From the NCBI GenBank assembly GCA_025355995.1, contig JANXYQ010000094.1, positions 1 to 47,357 of the forward strand: a DNA stretch of 47,357 nucleotides. The letters are read 5' to 3'. The notes under the pieces are model-generated. The model was not told the origin of the DNA and made no database searches. It saw nothing but the letters and a program-made list of their open reading frames with translations. Source of the DNA: Spirochaetaceae bacterium (lineage in GTDB: Bacteria > Spirochaetota > Spirochaetia > Treponematales > Rectinemataceae). The position numbers were made by a program, and so were the translations under genes. Positions 4,474 through 11,650 of this stretch are shown in pieces (position 1 is the stretch's first letter; each line of letters starts with the position of its first letter).

Positions 4474-5344
4474 TCTTGCGATGCAACTCATACAAACCAT
4501 CATTCTGGGCCTTGTCCAGGGACTCACCGAATTCATCCCCATTTCCAGCTCCGCCCACCTGGTCATCGTCCCCTGGCTCTTCGGCTGGGACGATCCCCTG
4601 TTCAGGAGCCTGGGCTTCGACGTAGCCCTCCACCTCGGGACGCTGACGGCCATAATCGTCTTTTTCTGGAAGGATTGGGTGAGGATCGTTGGCGCCTGGT
4701 TCTCGTCGGTAGGCCAGCTGAAGATAGGGAAGGACCCCGACCGAAGGATGGCCTGGTTCATCCTCGTCGCCTGCGTTCCCGGTGCGTTGGCGGGAGTCCT
4801 CTTCGAGGGCAGGATCGAGAAATTCTTCCACCCGGTCGGCGCGCCCATACTCGGGAGCTCGATGATCGCGATGGCCGCCATCATCGCTCTCCTGGGGGCC
4901 CTCCTCCTCCTCGCGGACCGCTTCAGCAAGCGGGCGCGCGGCATGGGAGCGATGGGCTGGAAGGACGCGATCCTCATCGGGCTTTCGCAGGCCCTCGCGA
5001 TTTTCCCGGGCGTCTCGCGATCCGGCGCGACCATCTCCGCGGGCCTGGCCCTCGGCCTGGAGCGGGAGGCGGCCGCCCACTTCTCCTTCCTCCTCTCCGC
5101 GCCTATCATCGCGGGAGCGGGGGCCAAGAGCCTCTACGAATTCGCGCGAGGGCTGGGCCAGGCGGGAACCGAGGCCGCGGGTCTTCCCCTCATCGCCGTC
5201 GGCTTCGCGGTCGCCGCCGCCAGCGGCTTCTTCTGCATCAAGCTCCTCCTTGGCTACCTTCAGAGGCATTCGGTCAAGGCCTTCGTGTTCTACCGCTGGG
5301 CCCTCGCGGCCCTCGTGGTCGCGGTCGCCCTCATCCGGGCCTAG
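4463..5344 (+). CDS. uppP: Undecaprenyl-diphosphatase UppP (BacA)
   Basis: Integral membrane phosphatase that recycles undecaprenyl diphosphate to the monophosphate carrier used for peptidoglycan and other cell-wall polymers. 293 residues, normal for the family. The first signature GLTEFIPISSSAHL is near residue 20, and the second, PGVSRSGATISAGL (PGxSRSxxT), is near 183; both hold catalytic residues. About eight membrane segments. The upstream ATG at 4463 is given; an internal ATG at 4481 (MQLIQTIILG) also matches the usual N terminus, and neither has a strong ribosome site. It overlaps the MFS gene and converges with the CoaX-like gene, overlapping it by 4 bases. Confidence 0.95.
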   Translation: MPHSLAMQLIQTIILGLVQGLTEFIPISSSAHLVIVPWLFGWDDPLFRSLGFDVALHLGTLTAIIVFFWKDWVRIVGAWFSSVGQLKIGKDPDRRMAWFILVACVPGALAGVLFEGRIEKFFHPVGAPILGSSMIAMAAIIALLGALLLLADRFSKRARGMGAMGWKDAILIGLSQALAIFPGVSRSGATISAGLALGLEREAAAHFSFLLSAPIIAGAGAKSLYEFARGLGQAGTEAAGLPLIAVGFAVAAASGFFCIKLLLGYLQRHSVKAFVFYRWALAALVVAVALIRA

Positions 5345-6204
5345 GCCAGGGGTCTCGGCGCGGGGGCGGCGCGCTCGGCGACGATAGCCAGGCCATGGAG
5401 CGCGAGGTCGGGGACGAAGCGGCCCAGCCCGAGCGCGGCGAAGAGCAGCCTCCCCTCCCCGTCGCCCGTGCCGATCACGGATACGGTCTCGGGCGAATCG
5501 GCCTCGCCCATCTGCGCGATCTCCTCGCGCTGGCGCCGCACGATCCGCTCGACGAGGCCGGCGAAGCCTATCGCCAAGCCGGCCTTGACCGCCTGGGAGG
5601 TGCTCTTGCCTATGGCCGGCCAGGGGTCGTCGGGGCGGCCCGCGTGCGGCCCGTCTATCGTCACTTCCGGAAGCAGGGCGGCGGCGGAGCGGAGGGCCTC
5701 CGTGGAGGTGCCTATGCCGGGGGCGATGGCCGCGCCGAGAAAATCGCCCGCGCGGCCTATGGCCGAGAAGGCGATGGCGGCGTCGAAGTCGACGATCACG
5801 CAGGCTCCCCCGACGAGCTCCCGCGCGGCGGCGGCCGCGCAGATTAGGTCGGAGCCGACCTCGGAGGGCTGATCGCTGCGTATCCTCACGCCCGTCCGCA
5901 CCCCGGGCCCTACGATCTGGCAGCTCAGGCCGAAGGCCGTGGACACCGCCCAGGCCAGCTCGCGGGAGAGCGAGGGCGCTACGCTCGACATCCAGGCGGA
6001 GTCGACTCCGCCGGCCTCTGCGGCGCCGCCGGCCTCGGACGCGAAGGCGCGCAGGAGCATGGCGTACTCGTCAGCGCTCCTCCCCAGCACGGCGCCGAGA
6101 CGACGGCGGGAGAGCCAGACGCCCTTGCCCGGCATCCCGGAGGGGCTTCGCTCGTAGAAGCCTACGGTTATAGCCCTATTACGGGCGTCGATCGCGAGGA
6201 GCAT
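5341..6204 (-). CDS. Type III pantothenate kinase (CoaX)-like protein with altered active-site motifs
   Basis: 287 residues with the overall CoaX/ASKHA fold pattern: the N-terminal LLAID strand, the PSEVGSD segment (D119), a central VIVDF strand, the AAIAPGI turn and an IGKSTSQAVKAG segment. Several catalytic signatures differ from the family. The phosphate loop DxGNT is DARNR (residues 6-10), GADR is GSDL (117-120), and the DxGTATT motif is DFDAAIA (139-145). Genuine CoaX phosphorylates pantothenate, the first step to CoA; with these changes activity is doubtful. It is the last gene of the ECF operon, overlaps the S-component gene by 26 bases and has a GGAGG ribosome site. It might be a diverged kinase, a non-catalytic ligand sensor or a decaying paralogue. 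Confidence 0.8.
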   Translation of the reverse strand: MLLAIDARNRAITVGFYERSPSGMPGKGVWLSRRRLGAVLGRSADEYAMLLRAFASEAGGAAEAGGVDSAWMSSVAPSLSRELAWAVSTAFGLSCQIVGPGVRTGVRIRSDQPSEVGSDLICAAAAARELVGGACVIVDFDAAIAFSAIGRAGDFLGAAIAPGIGTSTEALRSAAALLPEVTIDGPHAGRPDDPWPAIGKSTSQAVKAGLAIGFAGLVERIVRRQREEIAQMGEADSPETVSVIGTGDGEGRLLFAALGLGRFVPDLALHGLAIVAERAAPAPRPLA

Positions 6205-6781
6205 GATCGCCCTCCTCCTCGGCCAACCTGGCCTTGCCCGTCCTGCTCTCGATGCCCTTCCAAGCCGCGACTACGCCCAGGGTGAGGACGGCGGCGACGG
6301 CGGCCTCGAGGAGGCTGTTGGCGACGAAGACCGCGGCGGCGGCGGCGAGGGGGAAGGGACTGAAGACGACGAGGGCGCCGAGGACGAGGACGCTGTTGGT
6401 CAGGGAGCCGACAACGCCGGCCGTCGCCGCGGCGAGGGCGGCCAGCTTCCCGCGGAAGAGCCTGTAGGCGCCCCAGGCCGCGAGGCCGATGAGGATTCGC
6501 GGCAGGACGGAGATGAGGGGATTCACGAAATAGGGGTCGTAAATACCCAGGGGCGCCGTAGCGGCCTTCACCAGGGCCGTAATCCCGAAGATCCCTCCGA
6601 CGATCATCCCCACGACCGGCCCCTCGAGCACGGCGCCGAGGATCGCCGGCACGTGCATGACCGTGAGCGAGGCACCGGCGAACCAGGGGATGTACCCGAT
6701 CGGCGTGAGGAAAAGGGCGATCGACAGCGCGCCCAGCGCGCCGGCGATGACGATCTTCCGTACCGTGAATTTGCTTGCCAT
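6179..6781 (-). CDS. ECF transporter S component, probably pantothenate-specific (PanT-like)
   Basis: 200 residues with five or six membrane segments and a basic N terminus (MASKFTVRKIVIAGALGAL), the usual layout of ECF substrate-binding subunits. The segments YIPWFAGASLTVMHVPAILG and VVGMIVGGIFG are typical of the PanT-like branch. The S component binds the vitamin and docks on EcfT with the two ATPases. The pantothenate assignment is inferred from the sequence type and the downstream CoaX-like gene. Start at 6781 behind AAGGAG; it follows ecfT by 13 bases. The C terminus (EEEGDHAPRDRRP) is hydrophilic and overlaps the next gene. Confidence 0.8.
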   Translation of the reverse strand: MASKFTVRKIVIAGALGALSIALFLTPIGYIPWFAGASLTVMHVPAILGAVLEGPVVGMIVGGIFGITALVKAATAPLGIYDPYFVNPLISVLPRILIGLAAWGAYRLFRGKLAALAAATAGVVGSLTNSVLVLGALVVFSPFPLAAAAAVFVANSLLEAAVAAVLTLGVVAAWKGIESRTGKARLAEEEGDHAPRDRRP

Positions 6782-6794
6782 CTTCGTCTCCTTA

Positions 6795-7631
6795 TTAGCG
6801 GCTAAAGAAATGATCCATCGCGAACGAAGCGAGGCAGGCCGCGACCGCGGCGAGCCTCGCGAGGGCTTCGCCCCCCTGCTCGGGGTAGGACGCCAGCCTC
6901 GTGCGCCCCTTCTCGGCGTAGCCCCTGGATTCCATCGCCTCGGCGAGCAGCTCCGCGCGCTCGAGCGCCCGTACGGTCACGGGCACGAAGAGCGGGAGGT
7001 AGGCGCGGGCCTTGGCGATCGGCCCGCCCCTGCCCGAGCCGAAGTCAGCGCCGCGCGAGGCCTGGGCCTTGGCTATGGACTCGAGCTCTCCGGCTATCAT
7101 CGGCACGAAGCGCAGCGCGATGCCGACGGCGAGGGCGAGTCGGGCGGGATGCAGGCCCAGCCTCTCGAGCGGGGCCAGGAGATCCTCGATGCCGTGGACG
7201 GTCTCGCCCTCGCTCGTCACGGAGGTGAAGAGCCCGATCGCGGTCATGAGGGAAAGCGTGCGAGCGACCGTCATTAGCACGAGGCGGGCCTCCCTGGCCG
7301 AGAGGCTTATCGGCCCCAGGGCCAAGAGGACGCGCGAGCCGTCCCCGGGCCAGGAAAAGAGCACCTGGAGAAGCCCGGTGAATACGATGAAGGGAACTAT
7401 GGGCTTGACGCCCCTGAGGAGGAAGCCCGGGCCGATGCCCGCCGCGGCGCCCAGGGCGAGGGCGAGCGCGAGGGGCAGGAGGGCGCCCGCGTAGGATGCG
7501 GACGCGATGCCCGAAACCATCAGGGCCAGGAGCCACAGGTACTTGGTCGCCGGCGTCAGCCTATGGACGTAGGAAGATCCGGCCCTGTATTGGCCTATCG
7601 AGACGTTGCGGAAGAACTCGATGCCCCTCAC
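6795..7631 (-). CDS. ecfT: ECF transporter transmembrane subunit EcfT
   Basis: 278 residues starting at GTG 7631, whose codon overlaps the TGA of the ATPase gene (GTGA coupling). The N terminus HRLTPATKYLWLL is the classic EcfT opening, followed by about five membrane helices. Two coupling motifs, AxRG-like, are present: QASRGADFG and MESRGYAEKG; these helices sit in the grooves of the ATPases. It links ATP hydrolysis to toppling of the S component. Upstream in-frame codons are antisense-like, so the GTG is preferred. Confidence 0.9.
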   Translation of the reverse strand: MRGIEFFRNVSIGQYRAGSSYVHRLTPATKYLWLLALMVSGIASASYAGALLPLALALALGAAAGIGPGFLLRGVKPIVPFIVFTGLLQVLFSWPGDGSRVLLALGPISLSAREARLVLMTVARTLSLMTAIGLFTSVTSEGETVHGIEDLLAPLERLGLHPARLALAVGIALRFVPMIAGELESIAKAQASRGADFGSGRGGPIAKARAYLPLFVPVTVRALERAELLAEAMESRGYAEKGRTRLASYPEQGGEALARLAAVAACLASFAMDHFFSR

Positions 7632-9343
7632 GCGGCGGCTCCCTCGAGGGCGGCGGCGAGCTCCCCTATCGAGAGGGGGTGCGAAGCCAGGCTCAGGCCG
7701 AGGACCTCCAGCTCGATCGCGACCTCGCAGGCGAAGGGCCTGCGTATTCCCCAAGCCGCGTCGAAGCGGTCGTAGAAGACCGACCTCGGGGCGCCGACCG
7801 CGGCTACCCTCCCCCCGTCGAAGACGGCGACGAGGTCGGCCCTGGCGGCTTCCTCCATGGAGTGGGTGGCCATGACGACGGTCGCCCCCGACCTGCGGGA
7901 GCCGAGGATCAGGTCGAGCACGGCGCGCTTGGTAGCCGGGTCGAGGGCGCTCGTGGGTTCGTCCAGGAGCAGGGCGTCGCCGTCCATCGCGAGGACGCCG
8001 GCCAAGGCCAGCCGCCGCTTCTCCCCGCCGGAGAGAGACCTCGTCTTCCTATCCCGGTACTCCGCGTAGCCGAGTCCGGTCTCCTCCATCGATCGCCTAA
8101 CGCGTTCGACCAGGGCCTTCCCCGAAAGCCCCATGTTGCGCGGGCCGAAGGCGACGTCGTCGGCCGCATAGAGCTCGAAGAGGGCTGACTCGGGCCTCTG
8201 GACGGCAAGAGGGGCGCGCATACGCACGGAACGCAGGTCCGCGCGGGGATCGGAAAGCTCCGTCCCGAAGGCTCGCACCGAGCCGGAGCTCGCCGCGACG
8301 AGGCCGTCGAGGAGCTGCAGCGCCGTCGACTTGCCCGAGCCCGTCCTGCCCACCAAGGCTAGGGTCGCGCCCCGCGGCACGGCCAGATCGACGCCGCGCA
8401 GGGCCTCCGTCTCGTTTTCCGTGCCTCGGAGGTAGGAATGTCGCGCGCGGGAAAGCACGAAAGCGGCGTCGGCGACGGGGGCCTCGGGGAAGGGCTCTCC
8501 CCCCCTTCCCTCCCCCGGGGTCCGTGAAGCGAGGGCGGCGTAGATCCGCGAAGCGAGGGCGCGCGCGGATTCCGCGACGACGGGCTCCAGGGCGAGGGCG
8601 AGGGAGAGCGCTGCGCAATCGGGGAGCCCGAGGGCTTGGACGGAAGGAAGGCCGCGCCCGCCCGCGAACAGCTCGCTCGGGGACCCGTCGAAGACCAGCG
8701 AGCCCGCGTCTAGGACCAGGACGCGCGCCGCCCTCGAAGCCTCGGACATATCGTGGGTGACATGCACGACGGTCTTCCCGGAGGAGACGAGCCGGTCCAT
8801 GAGGCCCAGGATCGCCGCTCGGGCCTCGGGATCGAGCATGGCCGTCGCCTCGTCGAAGGCGACGCAGCCGACGTCGAGGGCGAGGACGCCCGCGACGGCC
8901 AGCCGCTGCTGCTGCCCGACGGATAGGAAATGAGAGGCCCTGGACCTCAGATCGGCTAGGCCGACGGCCATAAGGGCCTCATCGACCCGGCGCGCTATTT
9001 CTTCGCGCGGCAGCCCGAGGTTCTCGGGGCCGAAGGCGACGTCCTCCTCTACGGAAGAGGATACTATCTGGTCGGCCGGGGATTGGAAGACGAGCCCGAC
9101 GGAGGCGAGGGCCACGGCGCGGCCTTCCTCGCCTCGAGTCCGCACCCCGCCTATCCGCAGCTCGCCCGAGTCGGGTTCGCGAAGGCCGTTCAGGAGCCGG
9201 AGGAGGCTGCTCTTGCCCGATCCGTTCGCCCCTACGACGGCTACGTATTCGCCCTCGCGGATCGAGAGATTTATATCGATGAGGGCTGGGCGCGCGGAAC
9301 CTGGGTAAGAGTAGTAGACGTTCTCGAGTTCTATGAGAGACAT
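7628..9343 (-). CDS. ECF transporter ATPase, two ABC domains fused (EcfA-EcfA')
   Basis: 571 residues holding two complete nucleotide-binding domains. Domain 1 has Walker A GANGSGKSS (about 38-46), signature LSVGQQQR and Walker B VAFDEA. Domain 2 has Walker A GRTGSGKST (about 350), signature LSGGEKRR and Walker B ALLLDEPTSALDP. A linker of roughly 60-70 residues joins them. ECF systems often use two separate ATPases (EcfA1/EcfA2); here one polypeptide supplies both. Start ATG 9343 has GAGGTG upstream. It is the first gene of the operon (ATPase, EcfT, PanT-like, CoaX-like), reading from the promoter at 9421-9449. Confidence 0.93.
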   Translation of the reverse strand: MSLIELENVYYSYPGSARPALIDINLSIREGEYVAVVGANGSGKSSLLRLLNGLREPDSGELRIGGVRTRGEEGRAVALASVGLVFQSPADQIVSSSVEEDVAFGPENLGLPREEIARRVDEALMAVGLADLRSRASHFLSVGQQQRLAVAGVLALDVGCVAFDEATAMLDPEARAAILGLMDRLVSSGKTVVHVTHDMSEASRAARVLVLDAGSLVFDGSPSELFAGGRGLPSVQALGLPDCAALSLALALEPVVAESARALASRIYAALASRTPGEGRGGEPFPEAPVADAAFVLSRARHSYLRGTENETEALRGVDLAVPRGATLALVGRTGSGKSTALQLLDGLVAASSGSVRAFGTELSDPRADLRSVRMRAPLAVQRPESALFELYAADDVAFGPRNMGLSGKALVERVRRSMEETGLGYAEYRDRKTRSLSGGEKRRLALAGVLAMDGDALLLDEPTSALDPATKRAVLDLILGSRRSGATVVMATHSMEEAARADLVAVFDGGRVAAVGAPRSVFYDRFDAAWGIRRPFACEVAIELEVLGLSLASHPLSIGELAAALEGAAA

Positions 9344-9369
9344 GAGCACCTCGCGTCTCGGCCTCGTGC

Positions 9370-9400
9370 AACGACTACCGTCGTAACGACTACCGTCGTT
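9370..9400. repeat. Tandem 15-bp palindromic repeat in the ECF operon leader
   Basis: AACGACTACCGTCGT occurs twice head to tail (9370-9384 and 9385-9399), followed by a T. Each unit is itself palindromic (ACGAC-TACC-GTCGT). It lies about 15-45 bases downstream of the predicted transcription start and 27 bases upstream of the ATPase start codon. This is a good position for a repressor operator, or for two small RNA hairpins that control translation. Confidence 0.75.
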
Positions 9401-9420
9401 AAGGTCCAAGCGTTGATGAG

Positions 9421-9449
9421 AAAATAGACATCTTCGCTGATGGTGTCAA
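9421..9449 (-). promoter_or_regulatory. Sigma-70 promoter of the ECF operon
   Basis: On the minus strand a perfect -35 TTGACA (plus 9444-9449) and -10 TATTTT (plus 9421-9426) are 17 bases apart. The predicted start is near 9414, giving a leader of about 70 bases that contains the tandem palindrome. The -35 overlaps an 18-bp perfect palindrome (9448-9465) at the end of the LysR gene. Confidence 0.75.
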
Positions 9450-9463
9450 GGGCGAGCTCGCCC

Positions 9464-10363
9464 TTATGACAGATTCCGGCGCGCGCGGTCGGCGAAATAT
9501 TCCTTGGCTAGGGCGATGAACCTCTCCTCGCGGTCGGAGAGGAAGGCCTTGCCGTGGCAGAGCCCAAGAACCATCGTTTGGGGGAGCATCACGATGCTGA
9601 CCCCGGCCACGGCGGCGTCGCGATAGGCCAGGTCGGGAACGATCGACCAGCCGAGCCCCGTGCTCACGAGCTTGATGATCGAATACGCGTCGCTGCAGAC
9701 GTACCCGACATTGGGGACGCAGCCGTACTCGGCGCAGATCGATCGGACTTTCTCGGCCAGTCCCGGCGCGGTTGCGGGGGAGATCGCCACGAAGGCGCTG
9801 TCCCGCAGCATCGCCATGCAGGCGCCGGGATCGTCCTGGACTTGCGCAGTGGAGGGGAAAATGACCGCCAGTCGTTCCTCGGAAAGGGGCTCGAAGGCCA
9901 GTCCATCCTCGTGCAACCAGGCCCGCACGAAGCCCAGATCGATGGCGCCGGAGCGTATCGCGCGTTCCTGGGCCTCGGTGGACATGACCGAGAGCTCGAA
10001 CCTCATGCCCGGCTCGCGTTCGTGAACGAGCTCGAAGAAGGGCGGGAGGGTCGAATACATCAGGAAATTCACGCAACCGATCCGCAGGCTGTTGGCCTCC
10101 GACTCCCCGAGCACCTTGACCGTCCGCGCCACCATTTCGGCGCTGTCGAGCAGGCGCTGAGCCTCGATCTTGAGGTACTCGCCCGCCTTGGTGAGCAGGA
10201 TCGACTTCCCCGCGCGGTCGAACAGCTCCGCGCCCAGCTCCTTCTCGAGCTCATGTATCTGGCGGCTCAAGGGCGGCTGCGAGATATGCAGCTCCTCCGC
10301 GGCCCTCGAGAAGCTCAGGGCCTTCGCCACCGCGGAGAAATACTTGAGGTGCCGAAGTTCCAT
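9464..10363 (-). CDS. LysR-family transcriptional regulator
   Basis: 299 residues. The N-terminal winged helix-turn-helix is unmistakable (RHLKYFSAVAKALSFSRAAE, then SQPPLSRQIHELEKELGAEL), followed by the linker helix and a two-lobe effector domain. Start at ATG 10363, the canonical LysR N terminus (MELRHLKYF). There is no Shine-Dalgarno, and a predicted -10 ends 6 bases before the ATG, so the mRNA may be leaderless. It lies between the ATP-grasp gene and the ECF operon on the same strand; either could be its target, but nothing in the sequence decides this. The effector is unknown. Confidence 0.93.
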   Translation of the reverse strand: MELRHLKYFSAVAKALSFSRAAEELHISQPPLSRQIHELEKELGAELFDRAGKSILLTKAGEYLKIEAQRLLDSAEMVARTVKVLGESEANSLRIGCVNFLMYSTLPPFFELVHEREPGMRFELSVMSTEAQERAIRSGAIDLGFVRAWLHEDGLAFEPLSEERLAVIFPSTAQVQDDPGACMAMLRDSAFVAISPATAPGLAEKVRSICAEYGCVPNVGYVCSDAYSIIKLVSTGLGWSIVPDLAYRDAAVAGVSIVMLPQTMVLGLCHGKAFLSDREERFIALAKEYFADRARRNLS

Positions 10364-10405: not shown

Positions 10406-11497
10406 TTAGGACGTCAGCCGCTCGAACACGGCGACGGGAAGCGACTTTCGGAGACCGGAGGGCAGCTCACGGCGATACAGACCGGCCGAGCGATAGCGAT
10501 GGAGCGCGGCGACGACGATCGCGGCGAGATAGTGCTCCCGCTCGAGGCCGTAGGCGCTCGAGCAGGCATCGAACCAGGGATCGGGTATCTTGGGCTGGCC
10601 GTTGACCTCGAGGGCGAAAAGACGCCCTCCCTCGTCGATGAGGTCGCAGCGCGCGTAATCCCGTGCGCCCGACGCGGCCAAGGCCCTCCGGGCGAAGGCT
10701 CCGAGACGGGCTTTTTCCGCGGCGTCGTCGACGGGAGAGGCGATCGTCAGGTTGTGCAGCCTGTCCTCCCTCGTTACGACGCGGATGGGCCTCTCCTCCT
10801 TGAGGCTGATTTCTGCGGGCATCATCAGCGCCGCGTCGCCGTTCCCGATCATCGCGACCGTGTACTCGCGGCTATCTTCGCCCCCGACGAAGTGCTCGAC
10901 CAGCAAGTCGTCGTATTCGGCCAGGGCGGCCTCCACGCTCGACAGCAGCGCGCCGGGATCGAAGGCTACGGACCGAGCGTGGATGCCGCGGTTCTCGTTC
11001 TCGCCGTTCGGCTTCACGATGTAGGGATAGTCCTTCGCATTGGCGATGAGCCTGAATCCGGCCATGGATCCGGTCCTGGTCCTGCGTATCCTGAACGAGC
11101 TAGGCGTATCGATGCCCCGGCTTTCCCATTCTCCCTTGAGCCTGGACTTGGAGAGGCAGAGCTCGAGGGCGGGCGAGGAGGCCCCGATGAAGGGCACGCC
11201 CTCGCGCTCGAGGCATTCGCGGACCTCGCGCCTGTCGCCTTTCGGTCCGTAGCCCGGGAAAGGACAGAAGACGAGGCTAGGCCGTCGGCTGCGCAAGGTC
11301 GCTAGCAGATCTTCGCGGCTTTCCACGGCCTCGCAAGCGAAGGAGAAACCCGATCGCAGCAGTACGGACTCTAAAAGCGCTAACTCGTGGAACGCCGGCT
11401 CGAGTACCGCGTTTCGCGACATCCCCGGGACGAGAGCGAGTAGCAGGTTTTCGCGTTCCGCGATATCGCGCAAGGTCCTGTCGATTCTTAGGTGCAT
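10406..11497 (-). CDS. ATP-grasp protein, D-alanine-D-alanine ligase-like
   Basis: 363 residues. The central domain has the ATP-grasp pattern: YPYIVKPNGENENRGI (nucleotide-binding Lys and loop), LLVEHFVGGEDSREYTVAMI, DYARCDLIDEGGRLFALEVN and NGQPKIPD, as in Ddl-type carboxylate-amine ligases. The N-terminal half (PSLVFCPFPGYGPKG, then EREGVPFIGAS) also follows the Ddl plan. Ddl makes the D-Ala-D-Ala dipeptide of peptidoglycan, but NGQPKIPDPW replaces the usual NxxPG, and there is no mur neighbour, so another amino-acid or peptide ligation is possible. ATG 11497 is chosen for its GAGGG site and promoter spacing. It precedes lysR by 42 bases. Confidence 0.75.
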   Translation of the reverse strand: MHLRIDRTLRDIAERENLLLALVPGMSRNAVLEPAFHELALLESVLLRSGFSFACEAVESREDLLATLRSRRPSLVFCPFPGYGPKGDRREVRECLEREGVPFIGASSPALELCLSKSRLKGEWESRGIDTPSSFRIRRTRTGSMAGFRLIANAKDYPYIVKPNGENENRGIHARSVAFDPGALLSSVEAALAEYDDLLVEHFVGGEDSREYTVAMIGNGDAALMMPAEISLKEERPIRVVTREDRLHNLTIASPVDDAAEKARLGAFARRALAASGARDYARCDLIDEGGRLFALEVNGQPKIPDPWFDACSSAYGLEREHYLAAIVVAALHRYRSAGLYRRELPSGLRKSLPVAVFERLTS

Positions 11498-11512
11498 CGT
11501 GCCCTCGACAGG

Positions 11513-11541
11513 AACATATGCGCGAAGACGCGTCCTGTCAA
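11513..11541 (-). promoter_or_regulatory. Sigma-70 promoter of the ATP-grasp gene
   Basis: Minus strand TTGACA (plus 11536-11541), 17-base spacer, TATGTT (plus 11513-11518). The leader to ATG 11497 would be short, with GAGGG inside it; this supports that start over the upstream TTG. Confidence 0.65.
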
Positions 11542-11650
11542 ATACTTCAAAGGTATGGATGCCAAGCAAAATAGTATTGGACCAAGCCCTCGTCGCTCCC
11601 CTAGATTAGTCTCAAGTCAGGCGCGTTCGCGCCTCGAAGGAGCTTATTCA

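Follow-up and report, generated by a model that had tools for sequence, protein, structure and literature searches.

A CoaX paralog encoded together with a PanT-type ECF transporter in the window (the whole stretch of 47,357 nucleotides analysed here) is predicted with good confidence to be without pantothenate kinase activity. Our preferred reading, which as a whole we give a little better than an even chance, is that the protein is a non-catalytic sensor of pantothenate, or of the CoA state, that acts on uptake. The co-encoded transporter would be its likeliest target, with the hairpin RNA of the operon leader or the working kinase of the genome as lesser candidates.

The paralog gene (5341-6204, minus strand) encodes a protein of 287 amino acids that scores 152.6 bits against the Pfam family PF03309 (Pan_kinase; cut-off 24.7). 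Sequence profile and fold over residues 1-281 together place it in the CoaX homology family, and the original prediction was right that the CoaX frame is kept. The motifs read DARNR, GSDL and DFDAAIA, and GTGD replaces ATGG; the motifs of working enzymes (DxGN[TS], DxGT and ATGG) are absent, with the same pattern across the clade described below. The losses comprise the glycine and threonine around the motif aspartates and the second glycine of ATGG. The aspartates D6, D119 and D139 are intact, and we take these to have the catalytic and metal-binding roles assigned in structural work on the T. maritima and P. aeruginosa CoaX proteins; with all three kept, some phosphotransfer is possible by sequence. 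The motifs read as given in the original prediction, which overlooked, however, that the three aspartates are intact and that GSDL is a mild change. GSDL is also weakly diagnostic, in that the canonical CoaX of the same genome reads GADL and leucine at this position is the commonest state among the rows outside the clade.

Among 149 genomes of the order, 39 encode a protein nearer to the window paralog than to the canonical copy. The approximately 40 spirochaete members form a monophyletic clade (SH-aLRT 100, the one support measure of these quick trees) that is distinct from the canonical CoaX proteins of their own genomes. An alignment with CoaX proteins, proposed as a check on the original prediction, shows that the DxGN glycine is replaced by arginine in 37 of the 38 readable clade members whereas it is glycine in 91 of 91 other CoaX rows. 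The second ATGG residue is not glycine in nearly all clade members but is glycine in 89 of 90 other rows, and the DxGT threonine is found in 9 of 40 clade members as against 91 of 91 other rows. These changes are far beyond chance. The motif aspartates are retained throughout the clade (38/38, 40/40 and 39/40), and a 12-sequence alignment has D6, R8, N9, G117, D119 and D139 invariant. Plasmid records gave only distant CoaX matches.

The AlphaFold2 model of the paralog has a mean pLDDT of 92.8, and its best Foldseek match in the PDB is M. tuberculosis CoaX (9b78), with a TM score of 0.91 by target length. VIA-align Z scores were 30.0 for 9b78, 31.4 for 3djc and 29.6 for 2h3g, placing 9b78 among the top CoaX chains. 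The motifs of 9b78 read DVRNT and ATGH, and hence the glycine losses in DxGN and ATGG are common to this protein and the paralog (DxRN and TGD). According to a review, M. tuberculosis CoaX does not work as a dimeric kinase but is a trimer of dimers; it interacts with Dop and enhances the depupylation of PanB, and this enhancement is inhibited by pantothenate (PMC12288473). An earlier review calls the protein inactive (PMC7770189). In our trees M. tuberculosis CoaX groups with Pseudonocardia CoaX (SH-aLRT 99), and a single clade of M. tuberculosis CoaX and the spirochaete paralogs was rejected (p = 0.00035). Given this separate placement, the glycine losses appear to be convergent. The Pup ligase/Dop family (PF03136) was absent from the 10 clade genomes searched and was found in the C. 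glutamicum control, so the target of the paralog must differ from that of M. tuberculosis CoaX.

The end of the neighbouring S component gene (6179-6781, minus strand) overlaps the start of the paralog gene by 26 bp, in agreement with the overlap described originally. Its product is PanT-like, scoring 67.8 bits against PF12822 and matching in phmmer searches PDB 4rfs chain S (E = 1.1e-15), which we take to be the L. brevis pantothenate transporter, and 6zg3 chain C (E = 6.4e-9). The operon further encodes an EcfT transmembrane component (6795-7633, minus strand; PF02361, 92.5 bits), whose presumed start within the open frame 6795-7754 overlaps the ecfA stop codon, and a fused EcfA1-EcfA2 ATPase (7628-9343, minus strand; TIGR04520 with 461 bits and TIGR04521 with 429 bits, one for each half), for which we infer the ATG at 9343 as the start. 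A PanT-family S component, EcfT and two EcfA domains, which together define a PanT-type ECF transporter, are therefore all present. A consensus scan places a promoter-like TTGACA-17-TATTTT at 9421-9449 (minus strand), and promoter-like boxes occur upstream of the hairpin in relatives too. Directly upstream of the operon and on the same strand are genes for a LysR-type regulator (9464-10363) and a D-Ala-D-Ala-ligase-like ATP-grasp protein (10406-11569), both in the same position in the sole same-genus relative (L033). At five other loci (L058, L059, L064, L066 and L070) the ecfA frame extends to 880-1000 codons and we found no EcfT frame apart from it, which suggests a putative EcfA-EcfA-EcfT fusion.

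Nearly all clade paralogs lie within an EcfA-EcfT-PanT-CoaX operon and the adjacency is conserved over many genera, so that the link with a PanT-type ECF transporter, claimed from the window, holds well beyond it. In two family-level groups (f1 and f4) the paralog is present in every PanT-bearing genome. None of the PanT-bearing clade genomes has panC, and these organisms consequently seem dependent on imported pantothenate. Within the clade panC was found only in G022 and G034, which keep the paralog and lack PanT, implying that its role there is not purely transporter-bound. That pantothenate is the transported compound is a prediction, with indirect support from the linkage to CoaX, the pan-like leader and the absence of panC.

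In a scan of named genomes, EcfA-EcfA-EcfT-PanT-CoaX operons whose CoaX is canonical turned up in Chloroflexota as well as in other spirochaetes, for example Marispirochaeta. In a count confined to type III kinases, the outgroup operon CoaX is nearly always the only one of its genome, whereas the genome of the clade locus L134 has two. As the outgroup operon CoaX is canonical and nearly always sole, the clade arose most simply from an operon-linked active CoaX, which would, again most simply, have been freed from its catalytic role after a further kinase had become available. The shift to the clade is a single event, and its association with a second kinase rests on one transition. A separate coaX-panT pairing branch is seen in L006, L007, L009 and L010, where a different canonical CoaX lies beside a PanT-like S gene. 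Another departure from the canonical motifs occurs in L128, L131, L132, L135, L138, L143, L156, L157 and L160, whose CoaX proteins keep DxGN and have the DxGT aspartate changed to alanine, serine or glycine (AFGT, SFGT or GFGT); where searched, these are the only CoaX of their genome.

A search for a second, canonical coaA or coaX, also proposed with the original prediction, found a canonical CoaX elsewhere in the window's own genome (L001 1498-2274; DVGNT, GADL, DFGTALTF and ATGG), an outcome that favours that prediction. Across the 39 clade genomes, 30 have another type III kinase, six have a type II kinase instead and three have none that we could see. These three are 64, 82 and 89% complete, and another pantothenate kinase is present in 28 of 28 clade genomes that are at least 90% complete. 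The six genomes with a type II kinase and no canonical CoaX fall within the family of the window and retain the paralog. G022 and G034 have a distant CoaX as their other kinase, which in G022 adjoins coaBC. Type I CoaA was discarded as the other kinase, with none of the 149 genomes reaching the cut-off and the weak matches probably representing related nucleotide kinases. A number of near-complete genomes of the order (G002, G006, G014, G018, G033, G037, G049 and others) have neither a type III nor a type II kinase, nor CoaA above the cut-off, and several of these are also without PanT; they may either salvage later CoA precursors of the pathway or use an unknown kinase.

These data bear on the alternative that the paralog retains kinase activity, whether slow and directed at pantothenate or shifted to another substrate or phosphate donor, and traps the imported compound. 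Such an activity would fit the presence of D6, D119 and D139 in nearly all members, the purifying selection on the gene and an ancestral operon that pairs an active-looking CoaX with PanT. However, the clade as a whole has lost the glycine of DxGN, the threonine of DxGT and the second glycine of ATGG, near-complete genomes always have another pantothenate kinase, and both reviews report M. tuberculosis CoaX, in which the two glycines are likewise missing, as inactive (PMC7770189, PMC12288473). We consider a surviving kinase activity unlikely, although it is the alternative that fares best.

An inert paralog might also serve as a non-catalytic partner subunit in a heteromer with the working pantothenate kinase of the genome, and the heteromeric pantothenate kinases of apicomplexans, with their one odd subunit (PMC8366970), provide a precedent. 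We regard this arrangement as improbable in the spirochaetes, where the gene lies beside a transporter and not beside a kinase. Moreover, the paralog persists in the six genomes in which a type II kinase replaces canonical CoaX, which argues against an obligate partnership with canonical CoaX.

The leader of the operon carries an RNA hairpin with two bulged adenines (9348-9414, minus strand) that resembles the pan motif. Most operons of the clade have this stem, CGCUUGGA...CCGAGACG, ahead of ecfA, as do canonical operons of Chloroflexota. The likely ribosome-binding site of ecfA is GAGGU, the 3' flank of the hairpin. Both partners vary in six of the 11 pairs, a covariation signal that is lost on sliding the partners. 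Our own covariance model R1, built from 27 relatives with the window excluded, matches the window at these positions with 35.4 bits (E = 4e-7), its sole match in the genome, and the MFE fold of the window leader agrees with the hairpin. The published pan RNAs (RF01749) are stems with two bulged adenines that precede pantothenate synthesis genes and usually occur in tandem, and their original description proposes a dimeric motif for protein binding (PMC2864571). In relatives the match covers half of the family model (L143 with 28.9 and L052 with 23.5 bits, against a gathering score of 36.2), no pan match is listed for the window stretch, and an Rfam search of 11 loci at gathering level returned tRNAs only. 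The element therefore has the stem with two conserved bulged adenines and has neither the gathering score nor the tandem arrangement of RF01749. A comparison of pan RNA with CoaX in another class gave no RNA match in 296 genomes, leaving no basis for comparison. Conservation of the hairpin before the ECF-PanT operon extends over many Spirochaetota and Chloroflexota; transport operons are not described in the original account of the motif (PMC2864571).

The original prediction gave the operon its own operator-like repeat. The repeat itself is real, with two near-perfect copies of AACGACGGTAGTCGTT at 9370-9400 (minus strand) where 0.03 would be expected by chance, but the palindromes (AACGACggtaGTCGTT) lie in the loop of the conserved pan-like element, where they fold into a pair of small hairpins, and are absent from the relatives compared. 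The exact 16-bp palindrome occurs in its own genome only in this leader, other matches carrying a mismatch, and it was not found in the related loci compared. We accordingly dropped the transcription operator and prefer the conserved hairpin.

The paralog could bind this hairpin and so control the translation of its own operon in response to pantothenate. The element precedes the operon in most clade genomes, occurs once in its own genome and abuts the ecfA ribosome-binding site, and the dimeric protein-binding motif suggested for pan RNAs (PMC2864571) would suit such a role. Nevertheless we hold out little prospect for it, as CoaX has no known RNA-binding feature, the hairpin also precedes operons with canonical CoaX, and G022 and G034 keep the paralog with a weak hairpin match.

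The paralog is under purifying selection that is somewhat relaxed, with dN/dS values of 0.12-0.46 for ten pairs (the G022/G034 pair being saturated) and of 0.035-0.11 for eight pairs of canonical copies. Decay of what was once the operon's ancestral kinase is a very improbable explanation, for although dN/dS is higher than in the canonical copies, by a factor of two to four in several pairs, it is well below 1 in all ten, the frames are open in nearly all members across three family-level groups, and the invariant residues persist.

We thus return to the sensor of pantothenate, or of the CoA state, that acts on uptake. In the model that we propose, the ancestor would have been a type III pantothenate kinase, most simply encoded with its own ECF-PanT transporter. 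Where another pantothenate kinase was present the paralog would have given up catalysis and lost the ATP-side glycines and threonines but neither the fold nor the three acidic residues. It may then have been retained as a cytosolic sensor regulating pantothenate uptake, most likely through the co-encoded ECF-PanT transporter. The parallel would be with M. tuberculosis CoaX as a pantothenate-responsive non-kinase, here directed at uptake instead of synthesis. A more specific version, namely a dedicated pantothenate-sensing regulator of the ECF transporter that exerts feedback on uptake, with the pan-like hairpin as a second layer and an origin independent of M. tuberculosis CoaX despite the two same substitutions, is put forward only tentatively, as possible rather than probable.

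How bacteria limit their pantothenate supply is poorly known. If our reading is true, the conversion of CoaX into a sensor would be a repeated evolutionary route, with a second independent lineage in organisms that seem to depend on import. A further implication would be a cytosolic sensor serving an ECF transporter, a combination of which we know no example. Profile libraries score such proteins plainly as type III pantothenate kinase, and DxRN together with loss of the second ATGG glycine would then be a sequence signature for finding more of them.

Among known systems, the canonical type III kinases (B. anthracis 2h3g, T. maritima 3bf3 and Legionella 3djc) share with the paralog the full-length fold, the family score and the three aspartates, but they keep DxGN[TS], DxGTATT and ATGG. 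The S component is homologous to that of the ECF-PanT/PanU transporters (L. brevis 4rfs; B. subtilis PanU, PMC11487621) and is likewise accompanied by EcfT and EcfA, whereas here a single operon unites a CoaX paralog with its own EcfA and EcfT. The leader has the stem and two conserved bulged adenines of the pan motif RF01749, although as a single hairpin, below the cut-off and before a spirochaete transport operon. Human PANK4, a pseudo-pantothenate kinase (Yao et al. 2019, as cited in PMC9352595), is similarly a pantothenate kinase homologue without activity, a lack that in the paralog is predicted from sequence; PANK4 differs in belonging to the type II family and in having no transporter link. 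M. tuberculosis CoaX (PDB 9b78 and 9cku) has in common with the paralog the CoaX fold, the arginine in DxGN and the absence of the second ATGG glycine. It differs in its own branch of the tree and in its Dop/PanB target, and the review accounts give it no link to an ECF transporter. It acts on the stability of PanB, whereas the PanT-bearing genomes of the spirochaete clade are without panC.
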